Below, piece by piece: positions 1 to 28,936 of a stretch of 39,340 bases of DNA (position 1 is the first letter of the stretch; every line of letters begins with the position of its first letter). Origin of the DNA: Candidatus Aerophobetes bacterium Ae_b3b (GTDB lineage: Bacteria; Aerophobota; Aerophobia; Aerophobales; AE-B3A); the NCBI GenBank assembly GCA_005223085.1, contig NJBP01000013.1, forward strand, positions 1 to 39,340, in the 5' to 3' direction. A program made the translations under genes and the position numbers. The notes under the pieces were generated by a model. That model made no database searches and was not told the DNA's origin. It was given only the letters and a program-made list of their open reading frames with translations.

Positions 1-2
1 TC

Positions 3-587
3 ACAGGATTAGGTAGAAAATTAGAAAGAAAAGAAATACCTCCATATTTATCGGAAAGATCATTAGTAGAGGAAGAAGTATTTAGACATATTATTCCATT
101 TAATAATTTTGACCTTATAATTCAAGGGAGATCTGAGGGGGAAGGATGCTATTGTTCTATTAACAATATATTAAAACATTTGATAAAGATTTTAGCTGAA
201 AATTATAAAATTACTATTATTGACTCACCAGCTGGTTTAGAATTTTTCGCGAGAAAAACTTCTTTAAATGTAGATGATTTGATTTTAGTTACTGACCCAA
301 GTAAAATGAGTTTTCACACTTTACAGAGAATTCTTGAAGTGAAAGATGAAGTTAGTTTAGACTTTAAAAATATATGGGTCTTGGGTAATCGATTTAATGG
401 AAAAATCAAAAACCTATTCATAGAAAGTTTTAAAAAAAATTTAGGGAATCACATGAAATTGCTTGGATTCCTTAGCTATGATGGTGAAATTCAAAAGTTC
501 AATTTAAGCGGTAAATCATTACTTGAATTACCATCAAATAATGTTGTGTATCAACAAGCTAATAAAATTTTCTCTCAAATTGTTTAA
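3..587 (+). CDS. cooC: CooC-type CO dehydrogenase maturation ATPase (C-terminal part, runs off the left edge)
   Basis: Open from base 3 in the frame that stops at 587, so the N-terminus with the P-loop lies outside the window. The visible part has the pattern of CooC/MinD-like ATPases that help insert nickel into carbon monoxide dehydrogenase: an EGEGCYCSINN segment (residues about 48-58 of the visible part), then IIDSPAGLE in the position of the switch II/Walker B strand (CooC typically has IDNEAGMEH), then LVTDPS, and an N-R pair (LGNRFN) for base recognition. The gene converges on hdrB with an 18-bp gap. Extremely AT-rich codon use matches the genes to its right up to 9180. CooC beside Hdr subunits fits an anaerobe with CODH or CODH/ACS. 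Another MinD-family maturation ATPase is possible because the N-terminal half is not visible. Confidence 0.75.
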   Translation, partial: TGLGRKLERKEIPPYLSERSLVEEEVFRHIIPFNNFDLIIQGRSEGEGCYCSINNILKHLIKILAENYKITIIDSPAGLEFFARKTSLNVDDLILVTDPSKMSFHTLQRILEVKDEVSLDFKNIWVLGNRFNGKIKNLFIESFKKNLGNHMKLLGFLSYDGEIQKFNLSGKSLLELPSNNVVYQQANKIFSQIV

Positions 588-604
588 ATAAATGGGAAAA
601 GAAG

Positions 605-1567
605 TTATATTTTTAATTCTTCAATAAGGGGTGATATTCTCTCAATACAATATTTATCACACTCATATTCCATAAGAACTCCAATTAACTCATTTATATG
701 AACCGCTGGTATTTGTGGAGACTCACCGAAAAGATCTTTCATATCATCCCTGAATTTATTAAGAGAATAAAGACAAGTTGGGCAATTAGTAACTAATAAT
801 TCAGCTCCAGCACTTTCTGCACTTTTTAATTTATTAAAAGTAATTTGAAGTGCTTCGTCTCGATGTATTACGTTTTGAGATGCCCCCCAACCGCAGCATG
901 AATCTCGTTCTTGATACTCTATAATAGAACCACCCAAAATAGTTAAAATATCTTCTAATTTATTTTTGGGGGCAATAAAACTATGGATATCTTTTTTATC
1001 TAATAATAAATTAAGATAATGACATCCATAATGTACAGCACATTTTAACCCATTTAATGAATATTTTAATCTTTCTCCAATCTGTTCTCTAATTAAATGT
1101 AGGAAATCTATGACATGAACTATTTTCAATTTTGGAGAGAATAAGATATCTTTTTTAAATTCTTTTAAAATTTTAGTTGTTTTTTCCCTTATATCTTTCG
1201 AATTTAAAAATTTACGTCCTCTTAATAACGAAAGGTAACAACCATTACAAGAAACAATCAATATATCTGCTATTTCATTTATAGATACAATATTCCTCTC
1301 ATTAATTGCGGCGAACTGAGCTCTAGTTATTAAATTTCTCTGGAGAAAAGTTCCAGAACAGCAAGATTGCTCCAAAGATGTAGAAACTTGTAAATCAAAG
1401 TCTTCTAACATCGATTTTAAACAAGTTCTTATCCCGGGATAATAATATTCTAAACATGCTTTAAATAAACATATTTTCTTATCTTTAAAAAAATCTAAAG
1501 GATTATCATTATAAGTTTGTAAAATCTCATCTGTATCCAAAACAACTGATTTAATATAACCCTCCAT
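605..1567 (-). CDS. hdrB: Heterodisulfide reductase subunit B-like protein (two CCG domains)
   Basis: A 320-residue protein with two cysteine-rich CCG domains, the HdrB signature that binds the non-cubane [4Fe-4S] clusters reducing CoM-S-S-CoB-type disulfides. Domain 1 has Cys38, CC at 69-70 and CNGC at 107-110. Domain 2 has Cys182 (GCHYL), CC at 224-225 (SCCGWG) and CPTC at 262-265. No membrane segment is visible, so it should be cytosolic. It follows hdrC on the same strand with a 23-bp gap, so the two probably form one transcript and complex. Whether the substrate is CoM-S-S-CoB cannot be told, since HdrB-like subunits are widespread in archaea and bacteria that lack methanogenesis. Confidence 0.88.
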   Translation of the reverse strand: MEGYIKSVVLDTDEILQTYNDNPLDFFKDKKICLFKACLEYYYPGIRTCLKSMLEDFDLQVSTSLEQSCCSGTFLQRNLITRAQFAAINERNIVSINEIADILIVSCNGCYLSLLRGRKFLNSKDIREKTTKILKEFKKDILFSPKLKIVHVIDFLHLIREQIGERLKYSLNGLKCAVHYGCHYLNLLLDKKDIHSFIAPKNKLEDILTILGGSIIEYQERDSCCGWGASQNVIHRDEALQITFNKLKSAESAGAELLVTNCPTCLYSLNKFRDDMKDLFGESPQIPAVHINELIGVLMEYECDKYCIERISPLIEELKI

Positions 1568-1590
1568 CTTTTTGATCGAAACTCCAATAT

Positions 1591-2091
1591 TTACTCTTCA
1601 ATTCCAATATTTTTTTTGCTTGCTTTATGAAGATATTTGATTCTCGCAAATTCACAGATCTTTTTTATCTCTTCAATTCTTTCAGAAGGTAAATCAGATT
1701 CTTTCATTACAGTACCATTTTCTAAAAACCTTTTACACATTTTAACATATTTCTTCAATTGAGGAATATTATATCCTTTTTTAAAAGCTTCATTTCTAAG
1801 TGATAAGATAAATAAAGGTATATTAATACCCTCTTTGGGACAAATTTTTGAACACTTGTTACATAAAAAGCAATACCATATGTCTTCTTCTTTTAAAATT
1901 GACTCATCTCCAATCAAAACTTTTTCAACTATTTTCCGAATATTAAAATCCGAGATTTTACTCGCTGGACAATCACCGACACACTTCCCACAACTAATAC
2001 ATTGGATAATATTCCAGTTTTCATCAACATCTGTAATTATTCGATTGAAAAAATCCCAATTATATTTTGATTCGTTTTTGGTAGCCATCAT
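1591..2091 (-). CDS. hdrC: Heterodisulfide reductase subunit C-like ferredoxin protein
   Basis: 166 residues with two classic 4Fe-4S binding motifs: C31-x2-C34-x2-C37-x3-C41 (CISCGKCVGDC) and C74-x2-C77-x2-C80-x3-C84 (CFLCNKCSKIC), followed by a helical C-terminal segment. This is the HdrC layout; the protein passes electrons from a partner flavoprotein to the CCG clusters of HdrB. It is the first gene of a minus-strand hdrC-hdrB pair. No hdrA is in the window. The start ATG at 2091 is directly followed by a second ATG, and either could serve. The same layout occurs in GlpC-like and succinate dehydrogenase-like iron-sulfur proteins, but the neighbouring hdrB settles the family. Confidence 0.87.
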   Translation of the reverse strand: MMATKNESKYNWDFFNRIITDVDENWNIIQCISCGKCVGDCPASKISDFNIRKIVEKVLIGDESILKEEDIWYCFLCNKCSKICPKEGINIPLFILSLRNEAFKKGYNIPQLKKYVKMCKRFLENGTVMKESDLPSERIEEIKKICEFARIKYLHKASKKNIGIEE

Positions 2092-2137
2092 TAATAATTT
2101 CTTCCAAATTTTCTATATCTTAAATTATCTCAAATCT

Positions 2138-2150
2138 CTATATATAAAAA
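2138..2150 (-). promoter_or_regulatory. TATA-like box upstream of hdrC
   Basis: Read on the minus strand this is TTTTATATATAGA, an archaeal TATA-box-like stretch about 50 bases before the hdrC start. Its position would give a short leader. The whole region is AT-rich, so chance matches are common and the call is tentative. Confidence 0.3.
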
Positions 2151-2258
2151 TCAATAAAAAAGTTAATTGATTTTAATTTATAAAATATTTTCACAAATTT
2201 TTTATTTTGATTTAATTAAAGTCCTTATTTCAACTCATTCAAAAAAAAGAAAAACGAA

Positions 2259-3305
2259 TTATTTTTCTAATTCTTTAAAATATGGAATAATTTTATCTCT
2301 AAAAATTTCATAGACTTTATTTACATCCGGCCCTCTGTTCATTATTGTTAAATGTGTTGCTCCAGCTTCTTTATATTTCTCTATGCTTGCTATAACATCA
2401 TCTATTGTTCCCAAACAATTGAAATCTTGAAGAATAGTTTTGGGTAGTTGGTCTACATATTTTAATAACTCCATTGCACCCTCACTGCTCATATCAAAAT
2501 TATGAATTGTTAAATCACTGGATAAATTTATATTTGGATAAGCTTCATTGAGTATTGAAGTATTGAGTAAGTAAGATATCTTAAAGAATTCGCATCTTTT
2601 AATTGCATTTTCCGGATTTTTATCATCGATTGCTACAAAACAATCATATACATAATCAATCTCCGAAGGATCCCGACCAGCTTTCTTTGCAGCATCAGCC
2701 ACTCTCTCTTGATTTTTTTTATATACCCAAGGAGGTTGATAAAGTGGATACCATCCATCTCCTAATTCTCCAGTCAATTGGCGAGTTTTTGGACCATTTC
2801 CAGCAATGTAAATTGGTGGGCTTTTTTGAATCGGTTTTATTTGAATATAAGCCTTTTTCATCTCTCCCCAGAATTCACTTTTTGCATTAACTTTTCTTTT
2901 AGTCCAAAAATCTCTCATTAGAATTATATATTCTTTTAATTTAGTTAATGATCTTTTCCGATTCATTCCATACATGTCAATATTCATCGCCTCACCAGCT
3001 CCAATACCAAACATAGCTCTACCATTGCTAATATGGTCTAAGGTAGCCACTTTATGAGCCATTAGAGCAGGATGGAAACGATGACAATCAGAAACTCCGG
3101 TACATAAAGAAACCTTATTCGTTATCACTGCCAATGCCGATAAAAAACTAAAAGCATCAAAGCAAATACCTGGTCCTGGCGGTAACATAGCTGTGTGATC
3201 TGCATAAAAAACAGAATTAAATCCACATTCTTCAGCTTTTTTAGTTCCCTCAAACATAAAGGAGATTCTAGGCGTTGGTACGGGAATATGAAATCCAAAC
3301 TTCAT
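2259..3305 (-). CDS. LLM-class (F420-dependent) oxidoreductase
   Basis: 348 residues of the luciferase-like monooxygenase TIM-barrel family (PF00296). Visible marks are the N-terminal strand MKFGFHIPVPTP, EECGFNSVFYADH, the conserved central block ISNGRAMFGIGAGE (about residues 91-104) and IYIAGNGPKT with GDGWYP near residue 180. In archaea this subgroup generally uses coenzyme F420, as in methylene-tetrahydromethanopterin reductase (Mer) and F420-dependent alcohol or sugar-phosphate dehydrogenases. The sequence alone does not separate these, so no symbol is given. It is a single gene in a minus-strand row, with a 167-bp AT-rich gap to hdrC. F420 use is inferred from family and context. Confidence 0.8.
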   Translation of the reverse strand: MKFGFHIPVPTPRISFMFEGTKKAEECGFNSVFYADHTAMLPPGPGICFDAFSFLSALAVITNKVSLCTGVSDCHRFHPALMAHKVATLDHISNGRAMFGIGAGEAMNIDMYGMNRKRSLTKLKEYIILMRDFWTKRKVNAKSEFWGEMKKAYIQIKPIQKSPPIYIAGNGPKTRQLTGELGDGWYPLYQPPWVYKKNQERVADAAKKAGRDPSEIDYVYDCFVAIDDKNPENAIKRCEFFKISYLLNTSILNEAYPNINLSSDLTIHNFDMSSEGAMELLKYVDQLPKTILQDFNCLGTIDDVIASIEKYKEAGATHLTIMNRGPDVNKVYEIFRDKIIPYFKELEK

Positions 3306-3356
3306 ATTTTTAAAAATTATCTAAACCTATTAAAAATTTAGTATTAAAAATAAAAA

Positions 3357-6242
3357 TTATAGGTAAATTTCTTTTTTTCGAGCGTAATACTTTACTAGTT
3401 CAAAACCAACAATTGTAATTGATGAGATTAAGAAACAAATTAGCCAATCTAATGCAGTTAGATACATAAACATGAAATTAATCACTATATGTGCTAAGCC
3501 TACTTGGACTCCGGGAACATACATTATTAATAGAAACACAGCAAATAGAAAGCCTAGAATTAAATACATTCTTTTATTACTTTCTTCTTTTATGCTTTTT
3601 ATCAAAGATTTATTAGGGCGTCTTATTTGTAGAACTAAAATTGTTTCAGAGAAAAACAATGTAGTCATTAGCATAGTAAGTGTCTTAGCAACGTTTAAAT
3701 CAATCCCTGGAGTCAAATACATTGTTTCAGTTGTGAAAAGATAACCAATATTTAGAATATTAAATTCATAATTCAATGGAAAAGCGGGATATATTCCTGT
3801 AATACAAATAGAATAAACAACTCCCATACTGATCGCAAGTAATCCACCAAATACTAGAAGTAGTATAATGATATTTTTAGATAAAATTTCTTCGGAATCA
3901 CGAGGTTTCTCTTTCATTATGTCTTTAGATGTAGTATCGAAAGTTAAAACTAGACCTGGGAAAGCATGAAGAGTAATTGACAAGAAAATCCATTGTAAGT
4001 AATATTCTTCCGTTAGGAAATATGGCATTCCTAAAATGGCAAATAAAATAAATTGAAAAATCCCTTCAAATAAATTTATACTTATGTAAAAAAATACTAC
4101 TGTTCGAATTCTTGTAAAAATTCCTCGGCCTTCTTGAATTCCTTCAACAATAGAAATAAATGAATCATCAGAAATTACCATATCAGAAGCTTCTTTCGCA
4201 ACATCAGTTCCTTGTATTCCCATGGCGATACCCGCATCCGCCATATTTAAAGCTAAAGCGTCATTAACTCCATCTCCTGTCATCGCAACAACTTTCTTCT
4301 GATCTTGATATTTTTCAACGATATCTTGTTTGTGTTCAGGAGATACTCTGGCGAAAACTCTTATTTTATTCAATTCTTCAAATGATTCAATAGACTTTAT
4401 TTGACTACCTTCGATTACTACTTCTCCTTCAGATAAGATTGCTATTTGAGATGCAATTGCTTCTGCGGTATTTAGGGAATCTCCAGTTATCATTATAACT
4501 TCTACTCCAGCATTGTTGCATAATTCAACGGATTCTTTTACACCTTCTCTTGGAGGATCTAAAATTGTAACAAATCCAATATAAATCATATCTTTTTCGC
4601 AATTTTCTCTACTTTCCTCGAGATTTTCAGGTAGGATGTCTATTTTTTTATAACATAGACTCAATATCCTGTATCCCATGTTTGCATATTTATTAACATT
4701 ATTCAGAATCTCCTGTTTCAAGTCTTCAGATAGATCAACTTCTTTATTATGATATAAAACTCGTTTACATTGCGGAATCAAAACTTCGGTTGCCCCTTTC
4801 GTAAATGAGTAAAATTCTTTTTCTTTTTTATATATTTTAGTCATTCTTTTTATTGAAGAATCAAATGGGTATTCTCTTACGAATTTAAACTCTTCATCAA
4901 CATTATAATCTTGTATGGATTTTTGATATAATACATTAAGGGCTCCTTCAGTTGGCGAGCCAATTATATCATATTTATTAATAAATTTTTGACCTTTTGT
5001 GGCAGTTTTAATCTCTTTTTTAACTAAAGCTGAATTATTATTAAGAAACCCTGAAATCAGCAATAGTTTCAACTGAGGATATTTTTCTACATTTTTAATA
5101 ATTTTAGGATTCTTTATATCGTCCATCAAAATGATGTCTCCTTCTGGATTATAGCCACTTCCAGAAATTTTAAATATTGAACCATTTACCCAAATATATT
5201 GCACACACATTTGGTTTTTAGTTAAAGTCCCAGTCTTATCTGAACATACAACGCTTACTCTCCCTAAGCTATCAACTGAGGCAAGATTTCGAATTACAAC
5301 TCCTTTTTGAGCCATAAATAAAACTCCAGTTAATAATACAATCGTTGTAAGTAGAGGTATGTTAATAGGCATTATGTCCATTGCCGAGTTTAAACTATCT
5401 ACTATTTCAAAAGTTGTAAATCCACTCGCAATCAATTTAATCATAAACGTTCCGAACCAGAATATCAAAACTGCTAATCCTAGCCATTTTCCAAAGTTAT
5501 TCATCTTTTCTCTTATAGGAATTTCACTTGTTCCTGCTTCTTCCATTAAATGTGAGATTTTACCAATTTCAGTATTGCCACCAGTCCTAACTGTTATTGC
5601 TTTACCATTTCCTGTTGCAATAAATGTTCCGTAGAACATCATATTTTTCCGTTCTGAAATAGGAATTTTTTCCTCACTAAGAACTGTTCCTTTCTCTAAT
5701 TTTTTTACTGGCTCACTCTCCCCCGTTAGACTAGATTCATTAACCAATAAATTTGAGGATTCAATAATCCTAGCATCTGCCGGAATTCTATCTCCTTGAT
5801 TTAAAACTAATAAATCGCCTGGAACAACATTATTTGTGGGTATTTGTTTCTTTTCACTATCTCTCATAACAACAGTGGTAGGTGCAGATAATTGTCTTAA
5901 TGCTTCAAGCTTCTTTGTAGCACGATATTGCTGAACAATTGCTACGACACAATTCATTCCGACAATTCCTAAAGTTAAATAAACTATTCCTAGATTTCCT
6001 TCTTCTAAAAATACAACAGCTAAAAATAGGATTAAAGCACCTACTAAATATATTACTATAAGCCAATTGAAAAGAGGTGCTAAATATACTTTAAAAATAG
6101 ATTTCTTAACTTTAGGAATCTCATTTAATCCATATAATTCGAGCCTTTTCTTAGCCTCAATCTCAGTTAATCCAGCATTTTCAATAGTTTGAAAAACTTC
6201 ACGAATTTCTTGAATAGATTTGTTATAATAAATATCGTTCAT
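3357..6242 (-). CDS. P-type cation-transporting ATPase (type II-like), copy 1
   Basis: A complete 961-residue P-type ATPase. In order: N-terminal cation-ATPase domain (residues 1-70), two membrane helices, the actuator domain with TGES at 173-176, helix M4, the phosphorylation motif SDKTGT with the acceptor Asp335, the nucleotide domain with KGAT, the hinge TGDGVNDA, and a C-terminal six-helix bundle. Overall plan is that of SERCA/PMCA pumps. The M4 motif is PINIP (292-296) instead of PEGLP, and the M6 position of SERCA Asp800 appears to be His (LHAFPG). The usual calcium ligands are therefore partly gone and the transported ion is uncertain. M5 still shows an N-x2-E pattern (NLFE). A paralog lies upstream with a 59-bp gap on the same strand. 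Confidence 0.92.
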   Translation of the reverse strand: MNDIYYNKSIQEIREVFQTIENAGLTEIEAKKRLELYGLNEIPKVKKSIFKVYLAPLFNWLIVIYLVGALILFLAVVFLEEGNLGIVYLTLGIVGMNCVVAIVQQYRATKKLEALRQLSAPTTVVMRDSEKKQIPTNNVVPGDLLVLNQGDRIPADARIIESSNLLVNESSLTGESEPVKKLEKGTVLSEEKIPISERKNMMFYGTFIATGNGKAITVRTGGNTEIGKISHLMEEAGTSEIPIREKMNNFGKWLGLAVLIFWFGTFMIKLIASGFTTFEIVDSLNSAMDIMPINIPLLTTIVLLTGVLFMAQKGVVIRNLASVDSLGRVSVVCSDKTGTLTKNQMCVQYIWVNGSIFKISGSGYNPEGDIILMDDIKNPKIIKNVEKYPQLKLLLISGFLNNNSALVKKEIKTATKGQKFINKYDIIGSPTEGALNVLYQKSIQDYNVDEEFKFVREYPFDSSIKRMTKIYKKEKEFYSFTKGATEVLIPQCKRVLYHNKEVDLSEDLKQEILNNVNKYANMGYRILSLCYKKIDILPENLEESRENCEKDMIYIGFVTILDPPREGVKESVELCNNAGVEVIMITGDSLNTAEAIASQIAILSEGEVVIEGSQIKSIESFEELNKIRVFARVSPEHKQDIVEKYQDQKKVVAMTGDGVNDALALNMADAGIAMGIQGTDVAKEASDMVISDDSFISIVEGIQEGRGIFTRIRTVVFFYISINLFEGIFQFILFAILGMPYFLTEEYYLQWIFLSITLHAFPGLVLTFDTTSKDIMKEKPRDSEEILSKNIIILLLVFGGLLAISMGVVYSICITGIYPAFPLNYEFNILNIGYLFTTETMYLTPGIDLNVAKTLTMLMTTLFFSETILVLQIRRPNKSLIKSIKEESNKRMYLILGFLFAVFLLIMYVPGVQVGLAHIVINFMFMYLTALDWLICFLISSITIVGFELVKYYARKKEIYL

Positions 6243-6301
6243 TAAAATTTCACTTTTTTTATCTTACTACCAACATAATAAATAAACTTTAAAAATTTTG
6301 A

Positions 6302-9220
6302 TTAGAAAAATATTTTTCGTTTTCTTGCAAAATATTTAAAAAGTTCAACACCGATAACGCCTTGAGCAACAAAAACAAGCACCCAAATCCAATCTGTTGG
6401 ACTTAAAAACATATAATTAAATTGAAAGTTTAAACCTAGAACATCATTTATCGCATAATTGACAGGATATGAAAATATTATAAATAAAACGTGTATTAAA
6501 ACACAAAACATACTCATACCCATTAAATATTTGTCGAATTCATTGATAAAACTTTGTTTGAATGAATTATTTGGACGTCGTATGCTCCAAATAAAAATTG
6601 TTTCAGACAAAAATAATACCGTCATACACATAGTTCTAGCTTTTTGGTGTGCTAAATTCATTGGCATAACTAACCTATCTGAACCATATAGTTCGGGCGC
6701 CAAAATATAACTCAGATTTGGATCCAAATTAAACTCATTTATCGGTATTACACCAAAAAACGTAAAATAATATGATAAAGCAAATCCCAAGCCCATTAAA
6801 ACAGCTTGAACAATTAATAACACAATTAATTGCCTATTTAATATTTCTTCCTCATTTCTTGGAGGTTCTTTCATAATATCTTTTGGAACTGTATCTACTA
6901 CTAAAGCAAGTGATGGGAAAGAATGGACAATTGCAAACACATATATATGCTGCCAATTATTAAACAACTTAAATCCTTCAATAGGAAGAAATTCTGCAGT
7001 AAAAAAGAAAACCGCTACCACAATATTTATGCAAATGAAGAAAAATATTATTACTCTAATTCTAGAAAAAATTCCACGACCAATTCTCACTCCTTTTTCT
7101 ATTGATACAAAATTATCATCAGAGATTACCATATCAGATACTTCTTTTGCAACATCAGTCCCAGTTATACCCATTGCAATCCCAGTATTAGCTAATTTAA
7201 GTGCAAGAGAATCATTAATTCCATCTCCAGTCATTGCTACGATACGATCTTGTTCTTGGTATCTACTAATAATTTTTTCTTTATCAGATGGAACCACTCT
7301 CGCAAAAACAGATACTTTATTGAAATCTTCTATTTGTAAAAGCTCTATATCTTTTCCCTCAACAACGAAATCCCCCTCATCAAAAAGGTCAATATTTTTT
7401 GCTATTGCTTCGGCCGTTGCTGGATGATCACCTGTGATCATGACCACGTCGATTCCTGCAGATTTACAATTTTTAACTGCCTCAATTACTCCTTCACGAG
7501 GTGGATCTAAAATTACTACAAATCCTAAGAACACTAAATTAATTTCAATTTCATCTCGATTAAATTTTTCATTTTTCGCTATAGGTTTATCTATTTCTTT
7601 ATAGGCAATACTTAATGTTCGATATCCACTCTCTGCATATTTCTTAATTGAATCCAAAATTTCTGATTGCTTGTCATCATTTAATAATTTAATTTTTTTA
7701 TTAAATACAATTTGATTGCATCTTTTCACAATTATTTCAGAAGCACCCTTTACAAATGCATAATATGTTTTTTGTTTCTTACTTTTAGGTTTATATATTG
7801 TGCTCATTCTCTTAACGGAAGAGTCGAATGAAAATTCTTGAATATATTCAAATTCATCTTTTAATTTGTTAAGATCAAAACCAGCTTTTTCAGCCAATAC
7901 TAATAATGCAGCTTCCGTCGGGCTTCCTAAAGCACGTCTAATTCTTTTGGTTTTTATTTTTTTTGCTTTAATTTTTACCTCTTCTTCAATTAACGAAGAA
8001 ATATTATTCAAAACCATAGATGTAATAAAAAAATCAAAATGATTTTTCTTATTAAAATTAGCTCGTTGACCATCTATTTTAATTTCTCCCTCTTTATCAT
8101 ACCCAACACCCGAAACTTCATAGATTTTATCGTCAAACCAAAATTTAATGACAGTCATCTCATTCTTTGTGATTGTTCCAGTTTTATCTGTACAAATAAC
8201 TGAGATCCTGCCCATAGATTCTATTGCTGATAAGTTTCGAATTATTACACCAGTTTTTGCTAAATTAAGCACTCCTGTGAGCATAACTAGTGTGGTCAAA
8301 ATAGGGAGATTTATAGGGATAACATTCATAGATCTAATTATTGCAGCAATTAATTCTCCTTTGATATTTTCAGAAGTAAAAATATCAAGTAGTGCTAATA
8401 CGCTTAATTTATATATCACCAAAATTGAGAGATTTATAAATACGATAATAACTAACCATTTAGCAAAATTATTCATTTTCCTTGTTAATGGAATATCTTC
8501 TATACTTCCCATCTCATTTAAGGTTTGAGAGATTTTTCCAATTTCTGTTCTTATTCCGGTCCTGGCAACTATTGCTTTCCCTCTTCCTGTAGCAACATAA
8601 GTTCCCATAAATGCCATGTTAAGCTGTTTTTGTAAGGGAAGCTCCTTTTTTTCGATAATATTTTCATTCTTTTCAATTGAAACACTTTCTCCAGTTAATG
8701 GTGCTTCATTGATTGATAAATTTATACTTTCTATTAATCTTGAATCCGCTGGAATTTTATCTCCTTGATTGATAACTATTATATCACCCGGAACAAGTTC
8801 TCGAGTTTCTATTTCTATTTGTATCCCATCTCGAATTACAGTTGTAGTTAATGCCGAGATTTTTTTCAAAGACTCTAACGCCTTTTGGGCTCTATACTGC
8901 TGAATGATTGCAGTTAATGAATTTGCTATAATTACGCCCCAAGTTATATATGTAGAAGCTGGGTCTCCCAAAATCAAAATAATTATTCCAGAAATAATCA
9001 AAATAACAATTAAAAAATTAAAAATAGGCGCTAAATATACCTTCCAAATCGATTTTCTTATTTTTTGAAGCTCATTAAAACCATATTCTTTAGTTCTTTC
9101 TTCAATTTCGTCCTGTTTTAATCCCATCTCAACATTTGTATTTAAATCCATTGAAATTTTTTCAGTTGAATAGTTGTAAATTGGTTTGGAAGGTATTGCT
9201 TTTATCCTTTCTGGAGGCAT
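6302..9220 (-). CDS. P-type cation-transporting ATPase (type II-like), copy 2; native start lost at the junction
   Basis: 972 residues as read, parallel to its downstream paralog: LTGES at 175-179, PINLP at 302-306, phosphorylated Asp345 in TDKTGT, KGAS, TGDGIND and a C-terminal membrane bundle with VHSFPS at the SERCA Asp800 position. Alignment by eye puts IYNYST (residues 14-19) opposite IYYNKS near the start of copy 1, where only three residues precede it. The first ten or so residues here (MPPERIKAIP) are the antisense of the sugar-permease reading frame that begins at about 9183. The annotated start is therefore an artefact of the join, and the true start codon is missing from this window. 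The rest of the protein looks intact. Confidence 0.9.
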   Translation of the reverse strand: MPPERIKAIPSKPIYNYSTEKISMDLNTNVEMGLKQDEIEERTKEYGFNELQKIRKSIWKVYLAPIFNFLIVILIISGIIILILGDPASTYITWGVIIANSLTAIIQQYRAQKALESLKKISALTTTVIRDGIQIEIETRELVPGDIIVINQGDKIPADSRLIESINLSINEAPLTGESVSIEKNENIIEKKELPLQKQLNMAFMGTYVATGRGKAIVARTGIRTEIGKISQTLNEMGSIEDIPLTRKMNNFAKWLVIIVFINLSILVIYKLSVLALLDIFTSENIKGELIAAIIRSMNVIPINLPILTTLVMLTGVLNLAKTGVIIRNLSAIESMGRISVICTDKTGTITKNEMTVIKFWFDDKIYEVSGVGYDKEGEIKIDGQRANFNKKNHFDFFITSMVLNNISSLIEEEVKIKAKKIKTKRIRRALGSPTEAALLVLAEKAGFDLNKLKDEFEYIQEFSFDSSVKRMSTIYKPKSKKQKTYYAFVKGASEIIVKRCNQIVFNKKIKLLNDDKQSEILDSIKKYAESGYRTLSIAYKEIDKPIAKNEKFNRDEIEINLVFLGFVVILDPPREGVIEAVKNCKSAGIDVVMITGDHPATAEAIAKNIDLFDEGDFVVEGKDIELLQIEDFNKVSVFARVVPSDKEKIISRYQEQDRIVAMTGDGINDSLALKLANTGIAMGITGTDVAKEVSDMVISDDNFVSIEKGVRIGRGIFSRIRVIIFFFICINIVVAVFFFTAEFLPIEGFKLFNNWQHIYVFAIVHSFPSLALVVDTVPKDIMKEPPRNEEEILNRQLIVLLIVQAVLMGLGFALSYYFTFFGVIPINEFNLDPNLSYILAPELYGSDRLVMPMNLAHQKARTMCMTVLFLSETIFIWSIRRPNNSFKQSFINEFDKYLMGMSMFCVLIHVLFIIFSYPVNYAINDVLGLNFQFNYMFLSPTDWIWVLVFVAQGVIGVELFKYFARKRKIFF
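9175..9195. other. Breakpoint between archaeal-like and bacterial-like DNA
   Basis: Homology to the P-type ATPase (minus strand) ends within a few codons of where homology to an RbsC-type permease (plus strand) begins. The permease frame has a TAA at 9177-9179 immediately before its conserved GIAFILSGG block. Left of this point the DNA is strongly AT-rich and archaeal in content; right of it the composition rises and genes are bacterial. Both genes are cut and neither has a promoter here. An assembly chimera is the simplest reading. Confidence 0.75.
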
Positions 9221-9761
9221 GCCGATAGCTTTATATAAACCTTCTTTTTTTTATGTTTTATTAGGACAGGGAAGATTATTTGGACTTATTCCTGTTCCAG
9301 CTATCTGGTTAGTTGTGGTATGTCTAATTGGTTATTTTTTCTTACACCACACTAAATATGGATTTGAAGTTTATGCTACAGGGGGAAATAGAGAAGCAGC
9401 AAGACTCTGTGGGATAAATACCAGTAAGATTAAGTTAATTAGTTTTATCATTACAGGCATGGCTGCAGCCTTTGCTGGTCTCGTATCAGTTGCTTATTTA
9501 GGATCGGTTACGCCTAGACAGGGGATGGGAATTGAACTTGAAGCTATCGCGGCATCGGTTATTGGAGGAGCCTCCCTATTGGGAGGTGAGGGAAGTATTT
9601 TAGGAGCCTTTCTCGGGGCATTCATTATGGCGGAAATACGGAATGGGTTGGTCATAAAAGGCGTAGGTGCGTATTGGCAAGATGCTCTGTTAGGTTTGGT
9701 AATAGTCATAGCGGTAGTTCTTACAGCTCAAATCCAGAGAGGGCGAGCTACGCAAAGCTAG
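9183..9761 (+). CDS. RbsC-type sugar ABC transporter permease, C-terminal part only
   Basis: About 190 residues matching the second half of ribose/xylose/galactose ABC permeases (BPD_transp_2 family): GIAFILSGGMPI, GQGRLFGLIPVP, the helix LHHTKYGFEVYATGG, the hallmark NREAARLCGI (E. coli RbsC has NEAATRLSGI), then ELEAIAASVIGGASLLGGEGS and a last transmembrane pair. A full RbsC has about 320 residues, so roughly the first 130 are missing, ending exactly at the breakpoint. A TTG at 9186 can be read as a start, but no promoter or ribosome site serves it. No ATPase or binding-protein gene follows. A terminator-like hairpin lies about 100 bp downstream, suggesting this was the last gene of its operon. 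Confidence 0.88.
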   Translation, partial: GLEGIAFILSGGMPIALYKPSFFYVLLGQGRLFGLIPVPAIWLVVVCLIGYFFLHHTKYGFEVYATGGNREAARLCGINTSKIKLISFIITGMAAAFAGLVSVAYLGSVTPRQGMGIELEAIAASVIGGASLLGGEGSILGAFLGAFIMAEIRNGLVIKGVGAYWQDALLGLVIVIAVVLTAQIQRGRATQS

Positions 9762-9859
9762 ACTCAGTCTATCGCCAGAATTTTTTCTTTAACTTTACGG
9801 CTATTTAGGTAGTTCCAGAACTTAGCCAAAGCCGTCCGTACGTAGCTCTCGTAGATTTC

Positions 9860-9905
9860 CTCTCTCTTTCTCTTCTTAGAAAGTGAGAGAAGGAGAGAGT
9901 TTTTT
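9860..9905 (+). terminator. Probable Rho-independent terminator after the permease gene
   Basis: A pyrimidine-rich arm at 9860-9874 (CTCTCTCTTTCTCTT) pairs with 9885-9899 (GAGAGAAGGAGAGAG) over about 15 positions including G-T pairs. The loop is 10 bases and six T follow at 9900-9905. Orientation fits the end of the permease transcript. Confidence 0.6.
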
Positions 9906-10207
9906 CTCCCAACATACTTTCTGTTTTGATGAGTGTTTTTTAAGTACTCATCTAGTCTGCGTGATTTTTTGGAACGGGCAGGTTATAAAGAATAATAAAA
10001 AAGAATAATAAGAACTCTCTAAGTAGCTATAAAGCCTGAAAAGAAAACATTCCGAAGTTACCCACCTTTGCAATTCGCCTCAACTACAGAGAACATAATT
10101 TTTCCGAGTACTACACCAAATAGCAGTTTGATACAGGTCTTCTTCCCTCTTGTGCTGAATACAGACTTACTGCAAGCTGTTCTTTGCATTAAATATCAAT
10201 TTAAGAT

Positions 10208-10237
10208 CTGGAGACAGGTTGGGCAACCTGTGTCCAG
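10208..10237. repeat. Inverted repeat / hairpin
   Basis: CTGGAGACAGGTT pairs with AACCTGTGTCCAG across a four-base loop: a 13-position stem with one mismatch. No T-run follows on the plus strand, so a simple terminator is not supported. It may be a remnant of a mobile-element end or an RNA element. Confidence 0.5.
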
Positions 10238-10344
10238 GTACTCCCCCCAAAAAATGTCGAATTGGGCATATTTGGATTGGTCAGTCCCTTATTTTAAAGG
10301 AATCTTGGTCAATCTTTCCCTGTCTATCCAAACTGGGATAGGAG

Positions 10345-10504
10345 TCAGTCGATGACCCTGTCTCTCTGCTTTCTCCCCTTTTTCTCCTCCTTGATATCGT
10401 TGCAGACGGTAGATTTACTCACTCCTAATCGGGGAGCAAAAGGAACTGGTTCTCTGCGCCTAGCCAAACCGGTCTTCTCCGGTACTATTCAAAACTTCCT
10501 CCAT
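10345..10504 (-). pseudogene. Remnant of a small helix-turn-helix gene
   Basis: On the minus strand one frame ending at 10345 reads RLGVSKSTVCNDIKEEKKG and then a basic tail KQRDRVID. This is a good recognition-helix pattern (LGVSKSTV-x-DI). Going upstream, that frame meets a stop soon after its TTG codon at 10467. A neighbouring frame starts with ATG at 10504 and reads MEEVLNSTGEDRFG before stopping. The two pieces look like one short DNA-binding protein broken by a frameshift. It lies directly beside the repeat array. The match is short, so a chance resemblance is possible. Confidence 0.3.
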
Positions 10505-10540
10505 AATGGTGAAAATTCTATTTTTTCTTCAGAAATTCAT

Positions 10541-11320
10541 TCCTCCTGAAGGACAACCATTCCCGAAGGAATGTTGCTTATTCCCTTCAGAAGATACGGG
10601 ATTTCCTGAAGGAAATTACTTTTCCTCAGGGGCTCTGTGTTTCCTGAAGGAAATCCTGCAATGTCCCGAACTGCTATTGGCGTTATACCCTTTGCTTCCT
10701 TCAGGAACTTTGCTACTTCCTTCAGGAGATTTTTATTTTTCTTTGAGGACTTCCCACTTCGTTCAGGAAATTTTCACTTTCCTTCAGGAAATTTCTTTAA
10801 CCTCCTTCAGAACCTCTGAGAAATGAAACTCCCTTCAGGAGTCTTCGGGGGTCCTGAAGGAAAAACCGCCGTTGCTGAAAAGAAGACTGGTTCCTTCAGG
10901 GAAAATAAAGTTCCTGCAGGGAAAAGAGATGCCTTCAGGGAAGAAAAAGTTCCTTCAGGAGAATTAGAATTCCTTCAGGAAAACGGTGATTCTTTTATAA
11001 TAGTAAGAATTCCTTCAGGAAAGATAAAGTTCCTTCAGGAAAAACAAAGAGGAAGTGATCATGACCAAAATGGACGGAGTAAAGACGGTAAGGGTATAAA
11101 TTCCTTCAGGAGAATTAGGGCTCCTTCAGGAAAAACCCTCTTTATTTTGAGGAAAACGAATTCCTTCAGGAAATACTATCGCTCCTTGAGGAATAACTCC
11201 TGGTATTTTCAGGAGAAACTGCTGTTGGGAAAGAAGCTCTTTTCCTTCAGGAGTCCTGAAGGAAAAATTACCGTTGAGAATTTAAATGACAACTGATTTA
11301 AATTGAAAGCTCCCTGAGGA
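10541..11320. repeat. Array of a 10-bp near-palindrome (TCCTTCAGGA / TCCTGAAGGA) at about 20-bp spacing
   Basis: Sixteen exact copies of one 10-mer, counting both orientations. As TCCTTCAGGA: 10697, 10718, 10780, 10951, 10971, 11011, 11031, 11102, 11122, 11162, 11243. As TCCTGAAGGA: 10544, 10614, 10652, 10852, 11254. About ten near copies fill many gaps (for example 10561, 10759, 10803, 10831, 10892, 10912, 10931, 11183, 11311). Starts fall 20 or 21 bp apart, or at multiples of that: 10892, 10912, 10931, 10951, 10971, 11011, 11031. Spacers are AT-rich and mostly differ. Because 20 is not a multiple of 3, the repeat changes frame from unit to unit, so open frames across it are not selected as protein. 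The element should therefore act as DNA or RNA. Spacers of about 10 bp and the near-palindromic unit rule out an ordinary CRISPR array. Confidence 0.9.
11240..11266. repeat. 27-bp perfect palindrome at the right end of the array
   Basis: TTTTCCTTCAGGA (11240-11252), one central G, then its exact complement TCCTGAAGGAAAA (11254-11266). It is made of two array units placed head to head. A looser version with an 11-base loop lies at 10831-10861. It could extrude as a cruciform, fold as an RNA hairpin or serve as a double operator. Confidence 0.75.
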
Positions 11321-11848
11321 AATTCAAGAAATATGAATGGATAGTTTTTGATTTTTCTTGATATTCCTTGAAGATTGCCCCCACGGAAAATGGGCAAATA
11401 AGCAAAGTCACCCTGTTACCTAATTGAGATTGTCGCTAACGAGCTTGACTTCCAAATTGACTTCAGGAGGATTTGGTGGTAAAATAGGCATAAACGGTTC
11501 ACCGAGCAACGAGATTGTGATGAAACATCTAGCATTTGAAGGCCCCGATAGTGGCACCAAAAGACTCCATGTTGCAAGCTGCCCACTCTGCCCCCGGTCT
11601 CACGAGCTATATAAGACGGGAGGGTTTGTGACCAAAAGGAGGAGCGTATGGGCAAAGCCAGGAGTCGGTTTAGGTTTGATAGGGGCAAGAGGGATCTGGA
11701 GACTTACCTTTGTTGGCGTTAGAGATACATCATCTTCCTCGTGCACAAAGGGCTATCCACAGCGTGTACAGTTTAAAGTCTCCGACCCTGTTTTTTAAGA
11801 GAAAATTAAAGTAACGAGTTTAAAAAGTGATCATTACCGAAAAACCCA
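11321..11848. other. Stretch without a convincing gene
   Basis: Only degenerate echoes of the array unit (about 11365 and 11461) and short open frames are seen. The best small candidate is 11648-11722 (+). It has AGGAGG just upstream and 24 codons (MGKARSRFRFDRGKRDLETY and four more) before a TAG, with no known relative that I recognise. The 124-codon frame over 11424-11798 has no protein-like features. Confidence 0.4.
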
Positions 11849-12793
11849 ATGTTACAAAACTTCTCATGCAATGTTAGATCATTTTGTGATAAAGTCATAT
11901 CCTCCCTCCCTCAATTCTATGATGTGGATCAGGCTTTTTTTGTAGATGGTGAGCCAATTGAACCACGCAAAGAATTTGATTACACAATCAGGATGGTTAC
12001 AAACAGCTACTACCACCTCCACATCCCACTGCACGTAGCAAATAAGGATTTCACATTTCTTGAGTGTCTTCTCTTAAAACAAGCAGTTGAAGCAGGGGAG
12101 GTTGAAACCCACTGTCCGTTTGTTGTCAGTGTGCAATTTAACTTAAGAGCACGGAAAAAAGCTGAAAAAAAACTTGTTCGCAACTCTCTTGAGCTTCTCA
12201 CATCAAAAGATGAACGTTTCATGGAAAATCTCCTACGAAATCTCAACCTTGTGAGTCGGTATTCCCCATTTGCTGACATCCAACCATTCGGTATATCACT
12301 GACCACACTCCCTGTTTATCTCACGACTCTGCTTGAGGAGAGAACGTTAAATGAGTCATCGGTTGACTTCCTGAACGAGATCGTATTAAAGCTCATAAAA
12401 GACATAGGACTCGGGAAGCTGCTCACAATTCCCGAGCTGGCCTCACGATCAAAGAGTAAACAACTTCCTCTTACCAGAAAAAACACATCCTGGATAAGCC
12501 TTTTGCAAGACCTCATAAAGCCTCCCTATAACATACGACCCCAGATCAAAGCGGATTTTAGCACAATAAGGTGGTCTCACATACCTGCCCGCCTCGTTAT
12601 CTTAGGGCCTATTTTAGACCTGGTGAACGTACTCCGAGAGAGAAAAATTTTCAAGGTGTGTGAGAACTGCGGAAAGTTCTTCCTCCCCTACCGACCGCAA
12701 GAAGAAAAACACGTTTATTGTTGCAAGAAATGCCGAAAAAGGGCTGGGGAAAAAAGGCGCTACCAAGAAAGAAAAAAACAAAGCACACCTTAA
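11849..12793 (+). CDS. Uncharacterised protein with C-terminal CGNR-like zinc finger
   Basis: 314 residues. The body (1-265) is mixed helix and strand with no motif I recognise. The C-terminus has C-x2-C (CENCGKFF, about residue 270), then about 15 residues later a CCKKC cluster followed by RKRAGEKRRYQERKK. This arrangement, two cysteine pairs and a very basic helix, resembles the CGNR/DUF6076-type zinc fingers that bind nucleic acid. The start is uncertain because no clear ribosome site precedes 11849. It is the first intact gene after the repeat array and reads in the same direction as the recombinase module. A role in binding the array or regulating the element is inference only. Confidence 0.65.
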   Translation: MLQNFSCNVRSFCDKVISSLPQFYDVDQAFFVDGEPIEPRKEFDYTIRMVTNSYYHLHIPLHVANKDFTFLECLLLKQAVEAGEVETHCPFVVSVQFNLRARKKAEKKLVRNSLELLTSKDERFMENLLRNLNLVSRYSPFADIQPFGISLTTLPVYLTTLLEERTLNESSVDFLNEIVLKLIKDIGLGKLLTIPELASRSKSKQLPLTRKNTSWISLLQDLIKPPYNIRPQIKADFSTIRWSHIPARLVILGPILDLVNVLRERKIFKVCENCGKFFLPYRPQEEKHVYCCKKCRKRAGEKRRYQERKKQSTP

Positions 12794-13043
12794 GACACCA
12801 TACCTTTATTCCACGTCATATCAAACCTAGGAGTCTTTGCTCTCCCAGAAAATCTATTTTTTGTCCTTAGTCTCTGGAACTCCCAGAAAAGCAAATCGTC
12901 TGAACCCCTTTTCTGTGGCTATTCAGAGGCCTTTTTTTCACTATAATAAAGATGGAGCGATAACGTCACAAAAATATGCAGTCTCAACTAGTGATTATTG
13001 GGGAAATTACCGGAATTATCTGAGAGGAGGACGTAGCAGTAAA

Positions 13044-13478
13044 ATGCAACATAAATGCAACTTGTACGAAAAATGCAGTGCACCTTTTTGTCCCCTCGAT
13101 GCACGAATCAACAAGCGACTGTGGTTTTCTGACGAGCAGATCTGTGGTGCAAGGTGGACTCAGGCTCTTTCCTGGATCCAAGCCCAGAAGAAGATCAAAA
13201 AGAGAGCTCGTGACACATCGCGATATTTCACGCTGACAATGCTATCTCAAAACTGCCGCTTGAAGAAAGGTATTACAGGACTAAACCCGGACATGCCTGT
13301 TGAAACCGAGAGGAAAAGAATAGAAAAATGGTGCTTAAAACATCCACCAAAAAAAGAAGTGTCCCACGAGGAAAAGCAAGAATTCATAGAGAGAATGAAA
13401 AAGGCAAAAAGGGGAGATGTAAACCCCACGAAAAATATGCATCTTGGGCAAAAAAGTGCCCATACTCGACGCTTTTAG
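13044..13478 (+). CDS. Cys-rich conserved-type hypothetical protein of the recombinase module
   Basis: 144 residues from the ATG at 13044. I prefer this start because AGGAGG lies at 13025-13030 and the protein-like sequence begins here; the open frame upstream to 12837 looks like noise. The N-terminus has a compact cysteine set, KCNLYEKCSAPFCPLD, then WFSDEQIC about 20 residues later, which could bind zinc. After that come a basic helical middle (WIQAQKKIKKRARD), YFTLTMLSQNCRLKKGITGLNPD, and a charged tail. I recall similar small proteins next to serine recombinases in anaerobe genomes but know no function for them. The preceding 250 bp (12794-13043) shows no gene. Confidence 0.6.
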   Translation: MQHKCNLYEKCSAPFCPLDARINKRLWFSDEQICGARWTQALSWIQAQKKIKKRARDTSRYFTLTMLSQNCRLKKGITGLNPDMPVETERKRIEKWCLKHPPKKEVSHEEKQEFIERMKKAKRGDVNPTKNMHLGQKSAHTRRF

Positions 13479-13566
13479 CATATCAGTCTTGAAAGAGACA
13501 TAAAACATCGAGAACGGTACTCTAGGTGTTTAAACTCCCGATTATAGGAGGGTAAGATCCGCAAAA

Positions 13567-13580
13567 CACGTAATTACGTG
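13567..13580. repeat. 14-bp perfect palindrome CACGTAATTACGTG
   Basis: Fully self-complementary sequence in the otherwise empty stretch 13479-13681, upstream of the excisionase-like ORF and the recombinase. It could be an operator for a dimeric regulator of the element, or a part of an attachment site. Confidence 0.55.
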
Positions 13581-13681
13581 AGGGGGAGTGCCGCTTTTAG
13601 GGAAGAATCACGTGAAAAGTCCAGGGCAAAGGGATGATTCTCACATTGAAGCGTACAAAATGGCCAGGCGGGAAGGTTACA

Positions 13682-13798
13682 ATGGAGAAACTGCTCCCGA
13701 TAGATGAGTCGGCAGAGATTTTATCGGTGAAAAGTCAACCCTCTCGGCTAGTCGTGAAACCTGACTTTCCCTACCCAAGAATAAGATGCAAGAGATGA
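13682..13798 (+). CDS. Short excisionase-like HTH ORF, possibly truncated
   Basis: 38 codons from ATG 13682, with a GGGAAGG stretch at the right distance upstream. The start MEKLLPIDESAEILSVK is typical of the first helices of AlpA/excisionase (MerR-like) HTH proteins, which usually continue into a recognition helix (S-T-L-x-x-W). Here the frame instead gives SQPSRLVVKPDFPYPRIR and stops. A one-base shift after SVKS would give TLSASRET before a stop, so a frameshift is likely. It overlaps the next gene by 13 bp. Its place directly before a serine recombinase is where a directionality factor is often found, but it may be inactive. Confidence 0.35.
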   Translation: MEKLLPIDESAEILSVKSQPSRLVVKPDFPYPRIRCKR

Positions 13799-13989
13799 GA
13801 GTTCTTAAAGAGGGAATAGAAGAGTATAGGCAACTGGTTAAGAGAAAATACTCTATTGAGATAACTCAGGCTCAAGCAGAGCAACAATTTAAAGAATTGT
13901 TGGCTCTTTTTCGAGTAATTTACAAGCCAATAAAAAGATTTGACAGGAATAATTTTTCCAAATATAATGCCAAAAATGAAAAGAAATAG
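13786..13989 (+). CDS. Small helical hypothetical protein upstream of recombinase
   Basis: 67 residues, very rich in charged helix formers: LKEGIEEYRQLVKRKYSIEITQAQAEQQFKELLALFRVIYKPIKR. The pattern (EGIEEY, later L-x-x-L-F-R-x-I-Y-K-P-I) resembles short proteins I have seen encoded directly before serine recombinases and phage genes; no function is known to me. Its end overlaps the recombinase start by 23 bp, which suggests translational coupling. Confidence 0.55.
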   Translation: MQEMRVLKEGIEEYRQLVKRKYSIEITQAQAEQQFKELLALFRVIYKPIKRFDRNNFSKYNAKNEKK

Positions 13990-15667
13990 GTACTTTATTT
14001 ACTGCCGTAAGTCCTCTGAAGCTGAGGACCGACAAGTCTTGAGCATAGAATCCCAAATAAGGGAACTAACCAACCTAGCAAAAAAATTGGACCTTCCTAT
14101 TATTGACGTTCTCACCGAATCAAAATCAGCAAAGGCTCCGGGTAGAAAAACTTTCAATGAAATGGTGCAGAGAATTTACAGGCGGGAGGCTAGTGGAATA
14201 ATTTGCTGGAAACTGGATAGGCTCGCAAGAAATCCTATAGATGGAGGGCAAATATCCTGGATGCTTCAGCAAGGAGTCATTAAGCACATCATAACAGCAG
14301 AGAGAAGCTATCTCCCTGAAGACAACGTTCTCCTTATGAACGTTGAGTTCGGCATGGCTAACCAGTTTCTCAGGGACCTCAGCATAAACACGAAGAGGGG
14401 CATGAAGGCAAAAGTTGAAAAAGGTTGGCTTCCTGGTGTTGCGCCTCTGGGTTACCTCAATAATAAATACAGAGACAAAGGAGAAAAAGACATCATAAGG
14501 GATCCTGAAAGATTTCCTCTCATTCGAAAGATGTGGGACTTGATGCTAACTGGGAATTATAGCCCTCCCAAAATTGCCGAGATAGCGAACAAAGAATGGG
14601 GCTTTAGGACCAGAAAGTTCAGAAAGCAGGGTGGAAAGCCTCTTTCAAGAAGCACGATCTACAAGATATTCACCGACCCCTTTTACTGTGGAATGATACG
14701 GTACAATGGTCAGCTTTATCCGGGAAAACATGACCCCATGGTTACAGTAGAGGAATTCGACAGGGTTCAGTTTTTGCTCGGAAAGAAAGGGAAGCCCAGG
14801 CCTAAGACCCACGAGTTTCCTTTCAGAGGAATGATAAGATGTGGGGAATGCGGCTGCCACATAACCGCTGAGGAAAAACACAAGCTTACAAAGTTAGGGA
14901 TCCACCACTACGTATATTACCACTGTACTAAGAGGAAGCAAGGTATCGAATGCTCTCAGCCTTCCATAAGACAGGAAGAGCTGGAAAGGCAGATCAAAGA
15001 AGAACTCTCAAAGATCTCGATTGATGAGGATTTTAAAAATCTAGCCCTGAAATATCTCGGAAAGGTTCACGATGAAGAAGCTAAAGACAGAGCTTCTATT
15101 GAGAAATCACTGCATAAAACTTATGAGGATACTCAAAAACAACTTGATAACTTAACTGATTTGCGCGTCAAAGAAATGATAACTGACAAAGAATACCTGG
15201 ACCACAAAAACCGACTTCTCATAAAAAAGGAGCGGCTTAAAGAAAAAATAGATGATACTGAACACAGAGCAGATAAGTGGCTCGAACTCAGTGAGAGAAC
15301 CTTTACTTTTGCCTGCTATGCAAGATACTGGTTTGAAAATGGAAGTCTTGAGGAGAAAAATACAATTCTACAGGCGATAGGTTCGAACTTTATCCTGAAA
15401 GACAGGAAACTCTTTATAGACCTTAAGAACCCGTGGCTGATCATCAAGAAGGGATTGGAAGAAGTGGGATCGGAAAAAAGCAGGTTAGAACTTTCACAAA
15501 GGCTTGCCTCTTCTGAGGTTGAACCTGCTCTCGCTTCCGTTAGTTCTGCTTGGCTCCCCGGACTGGACTCGAACCAAGAGGATAGTACGTCAAAATGTAG
15601 ACAAACAAATTGGTGGGTGTATTTCTTGGTTGAAGATCCGTCGGAAAGAATAGATTATGCGGGGTAA
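13967..15667 (+). CDS. Large serine recombinase (site-specific integrase)
   Basis: 566 residues from ATG 13967 (ATG 13976 is also possible; the TTG at 13940 is unlikely). The N-terminal resolvase domain has YCRKSS, with the likely nucleophile Ser16, then LSIESQ, and W-K-L-D-R-L-A-R-N-P. The recombinase domain follows at about 160-270 (GWLPGVAPLGYLNN, SRSTIYKIFTDPFYCG). A zinc ribbon (CGECGC, then C-x9-C around a YHCTKRKQGIEC segment) and a coiled coil at roughly 360-430 complete it. It cuts and rejoins DNA with a 5' phosphoserine link to integrate or excise a mobile element. The last codons (LPGLDSNQE) read antisense through a tRNA 3' end, so the element's attachment site lies inside the gene's 3' end. 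It is the last gene of the plus-strand module 11849-15667. Confidence 0.93.
   Translation: MPKMKRNRYFIYCRKSSEAEDRQVLSIESQIRELTNLAKKLDLPIIDVLTESKSAKAPGRKTFNEMVQRIYRREASGIICWKLDRLARNPIDGGQISWMLQQGVIKHIITAERSYLPEDNVLLMNVEFGMANQFLRDLSINTKRGMKAKVEKGWLPGVAPLGYLNNKYRDKGEKDIIRDPERFPLIRKMWDLMLTGNYSPPKIAEIANKEWGFRTRKFRKQGGKPLSRSTIYKIFTDPFYCGMIRYNGQLYPGKHDPMVTVEEFDRVQFLLGKKGKPRPKTHEFPFRGMIRCGECGCHITAEEKHKLTKLGIHHYVYYHCTKRKQGIECSQPSIRQEELERQIKEELSKISIDEDFKNLALKYLGKVHDEEAKDRASIEKSLHKTYEDTQKQLDNLTDLRVKEMITDKEYLDHKNRLLIKKERLKEKIDDTEHRADKWLELSERTFTFACYARYWFENGSLEEKNTILQAIGSNFILKDRKLFIDLKNPWLIIKKGLEEVGSEKSRLELSQRLASSEVEPALASVSSAWLPGLDSNQEDSTSKCRQTNWWVYFLVEDPSERIDYAG
15551..15578 (-). other. tRNA 3'-end fragment inside the recombinase gene: putative attachment site
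   Basis: On the minus strand: a weakened T-stem (CTTGG), T-loop TTCGAGT, CCAGT, then the acceptor strand CCGGGGA, discriminator G and CCA. This resembles the 3' end of bacterial tRNA-Asn genes with a TCCCCGG-type acceptor. No D-arm or anticodon arm follows at 15579-15660, so it is a fragment, not a gene. tRNA 3' ends are classic integration targets. T-stem pairing is imperfect (C-T mismatch, T-G pair), so the copy has drifted. Confidence 0.6.
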
Positions 15668-15717
15668 TCGAGAGTGTTTAAAGAATAGAGTGAATTGTTA
15701 TTGATTTTGCCAATTTT

Positions 15718-16794
15718 TTACGGGAATACCAGACCCTTAATAGCATTGTCCTTTCGGTCTCTAATGGTTTTCAATCCAGCCAGAACATTATCCAGAGAAA
15801 ATCTGTGGGTAATTAAAGAGCTAACATCGACAAGTTTCGTATCGATAGCCTGAAGAGCAGTAGCCCAGGTAAAAGGTGCCAGCCAGGAGAATCGGATGGT
15901 CTTATCCCATAAAAGTGAGTCAAGAGCGGGAACTTTGAGAACATCATTGGGGCCGGGAAGGCCAAAGTAAACTACTACAGCCTTTCTTCCAGAAATCGTG
16001 AGGGCATCCTGCATTGGCTTTAAAGCTCCGGTGGCACAGATAACTCTATCAGCCATCCTTCCTTCAGTTAGCTCCTTAATTTTTTCTGGTAAATCATCAA
16101 TGTAATAGGGGGAATTTTTTTCTTTAATATTTAAAATGAAGTCTGCTCCTAGCTTCTTTCCCAGTCTGAGTCGATAGTCCCTCGTGCCGACCAGTACTAC
16201 AGTTCCTGCTCCTCTTGATTTGGCCATTTGAGTCATCATCAGCCCTATGGGACCGGGCCCAAAAATTACGCAGAAATCACCCAAAGAAATGTTCAGATTA
16301 TTAATCCCATAGGTGGCGCAGGATAATGGCTCGGTAAAGGCTGCCTGCTCAAAGCTAACCCTTGAGGGAAGTTTATGGATACCGGTATATTTAGATTTAA
16401 CATATTCGGCAAAGGCACCATTGGTAGATACTCCAATCACACTTTTATTTTCACAGAGATTAACCATTCCTCTGGCACAAACTCCGCAGGCGCTGCAGTA
16501 CTGAACCGGATCTACGGTGACTCGGTCCCCAGCCTTGAATAATCCTTTTTCCTGAGGAATTCTTCCCACTTCGGCCACCTCTCCAGAAAATTCGTGGCCT
16601 AGAATCAAGGGTCCCTTACCGGTGGGTGTTTCCAGAGGGCTTAACCCCCAATAATAGGCAATATCTGATCCACAGATGCCACAGGCTTTGACCTTGACCA
16701 GAACTTCATCTTCTAAAGGAGAAGGAAGGGGGACCTGTTCCAATCTCATCTCTTCTGGCTCATAAAAAACCTGCGCTTTCATCATTTTAGGCAT
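15718..16794 (-). CDS. Zinc-dependent medium-chain alcohol/polyol dehydrogenase
   Basis: 358 residues of the MDR family (sorbitol/threonine dehydrogenase type). The catalytic zinc site is visible as CGICGSD (Cys38) and GHEF with Glu following, the structural zinc site as C-x2-C-x2-C-x7-C (CSACGVCARGMVNLC, about 99-113), and the Rossmann motif as GPGPIG (about 180-185). These enzymes oxidise a secondary alcohol of a sugar or polyol with NAD(P). It follows the isomerase gene on the same strand (22-bp gap), so both probably act on one sugar, perhaps the substrate of the permease whose fragment sits at 9183. That link is inference. The exact substrate is not predictable. Confidence 0.88.
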   Translation of the reverse strand: MPKMMKAQVFYEPEEMRLEQVPLPSPLEDEVLVKVKACGICGSDIAYYWGLSPLETPTGKGPLILGHEFSGEVAEVGRIPQEKGLFKAGDRVTVDPVQYCSACGVCARGMVNLCENKSVIGVSTNGAFAEYVKSKYTGIHKLPSRVSFEQAAFTEPLSCATYGINNLNISLGDFCVIFGPGPIGLMMTQMAKSRGAGTVVLVGTRDYRLRLGKKLGADFILNIKEKNSPYYIDDLPEKIKELTEGRMADRVICATGALKPMQDALTISGRKAVVVYFGLPGPNDVLKVPALDSLLWDKTIRFSWLAPFTWATALQAIDTKLVDVSSLITHRFSLDNVLAGLKTIRDRKDNAIKGLVFP

Positions 16795-16816
16795 GAGGTC
16801 TCACCTCTTAAAGGAT

Positions 16817-17731: not shown

Positions 17732-17795
17732 ATCTTTTTACCTCCTTAAAGCTAATTAAACCACTGCAACTAATCCCGAAACTGTGCCTCAAACC

Positions 17796-17824
17796 ATCTT
17801 AGCATATCTTTCACTCTACGTCAA
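17796..17824 (-). promoter_or_regulatory. Sigma70-type promoter of the isomerase-dehydrogenase operon
   Basis: On the minus strand: -35 TTGACG (17824-17819), a 17-bp spacer, -10 TAAGAT (17801-17796), about 65 bases before the isomerase start. Good agreement with the bacterial consensus. Confidence 0.65.
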
Positions 17825-17864
17825 TTTTCCATAAAAATTCCTTTGCTCCAGGGCAATATGGTAG

Positions 17865-17893
17865 TTGAAAATTAATTTAACAAGCTTTAATCT
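17865..17893 (+). promoter_or_regulatory. Possible weaker upstream promoter
   Basis: TTGAAA (17865-17870), a 17-bp spacer and TAATCT (17888-17893), pointing toward the thiamine operon. It lies 107 bp before the stronger promoter at 17972, in a short AT-rich region, so it may be chance. Confidence 0.3.
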
Positions 17894-17971
17894 AAAAGAG
17901 TGAATATGTTAGACCAAGGGAATCTTTTAGGTTTTCGAGAAAAGTTCTCCAGGTCCATCCATCGCGCAGAA

Positions 17972-18000
17972 TTGACTTTCCTCCTTCTATACGCTATGAT
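17972..18000 (+). promoter_or_regulatory. Near-consensus sigma70 promoter of thiD2E-tsaE-tsaB-rimI
   Basis: TTGACT (17972-17977), an exact 17-bp spacer and TATGAT (17995-18000). The transcript would carry a leader of about 135 bases that includes the REP-like palindrome. No TPP riboswitch core (CUGAGA with the partner loops) was found in the leader. Confidence 0.7.
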
Positions 18001-18031
18001 TTTGATTGGTAAATACTTAGTGAACCCCGTC

Positions 18032-18117: not shown

Positions 18118-18141
18118 AAAGATTATCCCCTGGAGTCTATA

Positions 18142-19194: not shown

Positions 19195-19195
19195 G

Positions 19196-21370: not shown

Positions 21371-21375
21371 CTTAT

Positions 21376-23394: not shown

Positions 23395-23416
23395 ACTTGT
23401 CCTCCGGTAACTTTAA

Positions 23417-24541: not shown

Positions 24542-24557
24542 TGAGAATCCCTTTTCT

Positions 24558-26548: not shown

Positions 26549-26550
26549 GA

Positions 26551-28897: not shown

Positions 28898-28936
28898 GAG
28901 AATCTCGGGACTCTTCCCCTTCGTCGCTGTATATCA

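Follow-up and report, generated by a model that had tools for sequence, protein, structure and literature searches.

The 39,340-base window analysed here is an entire contig of a bacterial bin, and it begins with genes of archaeal type and continues with bacterial ones. This raises the question of whether the two sequences were joined in a living cell or during assembly. An initial annotation had placed an abrupt archaea-to-bacteria breakpoint at 9175-9195, cutting two genes at once, and had read it as the mark of a chimeric contig or, if real, of a fresh inter-domain recombination. We conclude with high confidence that the switch is a de novo assembly chimera, produced through a 21-base word common to both sequences, and not a real exchange of DNA.

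Composition and origin of the two parts of the contig

The bin, which comprises 86 contigs totalling 2.04 Mb and has a completeness of 88.6% and a contamination of 0.42%, is bacterial, and 19 other sampled contigs, which served as the reference for its composition, have a GC content of 41.5-44.4%. The initial 9,180 bases of the window have a GC content of 29.9% and lie at a tetranucleotide distance of 0.46 from the bin mean, against 0.07-0.13 for the other sampled contigs and 0.13-0.16 for the remainder of the window, a comparison that the initial annotation had proposed for the two halves. The composition of the left part is thus foreign to the bin. Across the junction the GC fraction shifts from 0.30 to 0.43, with a change point at 9374 (2-nat interval 9290-9461) that is probably displaced because the permease fragment described below begins with a locally AT-rich segment.

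The left part (1-9212) derives from Lokiarchaeota, as established by colinear nucleotide matches to four metagenome-assembled genomes (MAGs) and by Pfam. It encodes a P-loop/MinD-like ATPase, CCG-domain and 4Fe-4S proteins, a luciferase-like oxidoreductase and two P-type cation ATPases. With the ATPase protein as query, a search across 84,980 species genomes led to these four Lokiarchaeota MAGs (89-96% protein identity), and no close match was found in bacterial genomes of the same genus or family. CSMAG_2237 is colinear with positions 1-9212 at 97.6-97.8% nucleotide identity, 6H3_1 is colinear at 96.7% over the part of the window that it covers, 2R3_4 at 96.8-97.7% up to 8555, where its contig ends, and ABR01 at 80-89%. 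In CSMAG_2237, 6H3_1 and ABR01 the match ends at the base equivalent to 9212. A search of the bin for the next 4 kb of the Lokiarchaeota locus matched nothing but the 75 bases leading up to the join itself. The two P-type ATPases form a tandem pair (3357-9220) with about 45% identity to each other, and their order is the same in the four Lokiarchaeota assemblies.

The bacterial part extends from 9192 to 39340, as judged from its composition and from the colinearity of positions 15554-34576 with a contig of the nearest genome, the only one of the same genus that was compared (90-92% nucleotide identity). This colinearity establishes that positions 15554-34576 are native to the bin. To the left of the 15554 edge the contig of the related genome carries different genes, and the interval from 9.2 to 15.55 kb is attributed to the bacterium only on the basis of its composition and of the homology of its permease.

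The truncated genes and the 21-base word

The ATPase gene at the junction (6302-9220, minus strand) encodes 972 amino acids and has its N-terminus cut by the join. Its intact orthologues in CSMAG_2237, 6H3_1 and ABR01 have 1009-1010 amino acids, leaving the window protein short by about 40 residues, and its opening few residues are the antisense of the bacterial permease gene. These three assemblies run on past the junction with a normal N-terminus, each with one intact ATPase gene, and none of them carries the bacterial piece there. On the plus strand, the open reading frame at 9186-9761, bacterial from about 9192, corresponds only to the C-terminal part of an RbsC-type ABC permease (positions 135-269 of the 269 of profile PF02653). 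Its best intact relatives, from the same family and order, share about 35-47% identity with it, and the genomes compared contained no close relative of this permease locus. Read from stop to stop, it aligns from residue 132-164 or so of these relatives, so that roughly 130-155 residues are missing. A search of the bin for the missing N-terminal half returned ten matches, all ten of which belong to full-length permeases. The loss of the native ATPase start and of about 130 permease residues and the sharp change in composition and gene content, all put forward in the initial annotation, are therefore confirmed, and its suspicion of a chimeric contig is supported. The abruptness of the switch is likewise real, and only its position needs revision: instead of a single point within 9175-9195, the junction is an overlap spanning about 9192-9212, some 15 bases further right.

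This overlap of 21 bases arises because Lokiarchaeota identity ends at 9212 and homology to bacterial permeases starts at about 9192. The word that occupies it, GGTATTGCTTTTATCCTTTCT, is found exactly in two Lokiarchaeota assemblies, CSMAG_2237 and 6H3_1. In an alignment with 21 relatives, the part of the permease fragment that lies strictly past the Lokiarchaeota identity (9213 onwards, GGMPIALYK...) falls on the conserved GG that follows the permease motif RG(I/L)xLIx(S/T). The seven codons of 9192-9212 read GIAFILS and fit the columns of this motif without gaps, a score equalled or exceeded by only 6 of the 104,484 words of seven residues taken from Lokiarchaeota DNA translated in six frames (p 5.7e-5). 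The codon immediately before encodes E where the permease family has R, and does not fit. Together, this fit and the misfit that precedes it suggest that bases 9192-9212 are native to both parents, the bacterial copy of the word being deduced from conservation of the permease protein. Allowing up to one mismatch, no second copy of GGTATTGCTTTTATCCTTTCT was found elsewhere in the bin.

Between a 2.04-Mb genome and a Lokiarchaeote genome assumed to be of 4 Mb, with the compositions considered here, chance alone is expected to yield about 12 shared 21-mers, 3 shared 22-mers and 0.004 shared 27-mers. The default smallest k of both metaSPAdes and MEGAHIT is 21, and a chance word of this length is thus commonplace for an assembler starting at that value. 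A join placed at random would have almost no overlap; the overlap observed here is what a chimeric join mediated by k-mers leaves.

Assembly chimera, recombination or library artefact

The proposed course of events is as follows. In the metagenome, the ATPase gene of a Lokiarchaeote and an rbsC-type permease gene of the bacterium would share the 21-base word by chance, and a multi-k de Bruijn assembler with a smallest k of 21 (the type of assembler is our inference) would make a node of it. The assembler would enter this node on the archaeal path and leave it on the bacterial one, probably as a result of poor coverage of the true exits. Since bacterial sequence makes up three quarters of the resulting 39-kb contig, binning would then have placed it with the bacterium. 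One point against this scenario is that later rounds with larger k normally break 21-base joins, so this join must have survived them. As in other inter-genome translocation misassemblies of short-read metagenomes, taxon, composition and reading frame all switch within one k-mer, the archaeal parent is intact elsewhere, and the event is invisible to the marker-gene estimate of contamination (0.42%). It differs from the usual case in that the parents belong to different domains and that the bacterial parent's own continuation is absent from the bin. De Bruijn assemblers are known to lose context and can link sequences through shared k-mers (PMC7299287), and on the CAMI sets inter-genome translocation was the commonest misassembly and occurred more often with MEGAHIT than with IDBA_UD (PMC9661791). 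Against a chimera, the authors of GUNC rate misassembly as relatively rare compared with mis-binning (PMC8201837).

A very recent uptake by the bacterium of 9 kb or more from the chromosome of a Lokiarchaeote, with recombination inside the rbsC-type gene at the 21-bp microhomology, appears very improbable and is without positive support. The deposited contig does link the two sequences and, as in horizontal transfer between domains, archaeal and bacterial genes stand on one contig; the microhomology could in principle guide such an event, and a serine recombinase (13940-15667) lies 4.7 kb from the join. That distance, however, is itself an objection, and integration by this recombinase was rejected, since the gene lies at another break in synteny (15554). 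A horizontally acquired segment would be recognised by two borders in host sequence or by the same insertion in relatives, and neither was found: there is a single border, the left side ending with the contig, and the archaeal ATPase lacks a close counterpart in genomes of the same genus or family. Unlike the product of an inter-domain transfer, the donor part has near-species-level identity (97-98%) to Lokiarchaeota MAGs of other assemblies, with unchanged gene order, and it retains the donor composition. One gene is cut on each side of the border, and recombination would moreover need an overlap that happens to coincide with k, the join falling on a 21-base word. No plasmid record containing the junction was found.

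A physical chimera formed during library preparation or amplification, whether two DNA molecules were ligated or template switching took place between them, would yield the same abrupt switch, and template switching can exploit short words that the templates have in common. A lone chimeric molecule would nevertheless seldom reach the depth needed for assembly into a 39-kb contig, and the overlap equals the usual k of assemblers; we regard this origin as extremely improbable. Returning to the assembly chimera, the evidence agrees with it wherever a test gave a clear result, and the junction is almost certainly an artefact of an ordinary kind and not a real biological feature.

Consequences for the bin and observations on its bacterial part

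A chimeric archaeal-bacterial contig thus sits in a bin reported as 0.42% contaminated. The archaeal 9.2 kb are contamination of the bacterial bin, to be flagged or removed, and we recommend splitting the contig at 9192-9212. Counted as bacterial, these 9.2 kb would lead to false claims of Asgard-to-bacteria gene transfer, the genes at risk being those for the CCG-domain and Fe-S proteins, the luciferase-like oxidoreductase and the two P-type ATPases.

Several features of the bacterial part were also noted. About 6 kb (9213-15554) are absent from the colinear contig in the genome of the same genus, and the recombinase gene mentioned above, encoding a large serine recombinase (PF00239, PF07508, PF13408), lies on the edge of this stretch, which may therefore belong to an integrated element. 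Within it, at positions 10544-11263, TCCTTCAGGA occurs 16 times without mismatch, in either orientation and often at a spacing of 20-21 bases, against 0.26 copies expected by chance in the whole window; the paired form was not found elsewhere in the bin. The open reading frames at 10506-10826 and 10823-11296, which cross these repeats, look like translated repeat and not like genes. Further along, the colinear same-genus contig lacks about 1.28 kb (30517-31797) that hold the greater part of a radical-SAM-like gene, the two end positions mapping 6 bases apart on that contig; this difference may reflect a gain, a loss or an assembly gap. Finally, the GC content rises to about 50% at 35553-39340, its neighbours being at 42-44%, over what we take, from the sequence alone, to be the genes of an RND-type efflux pump and its membrane-fusion partner.
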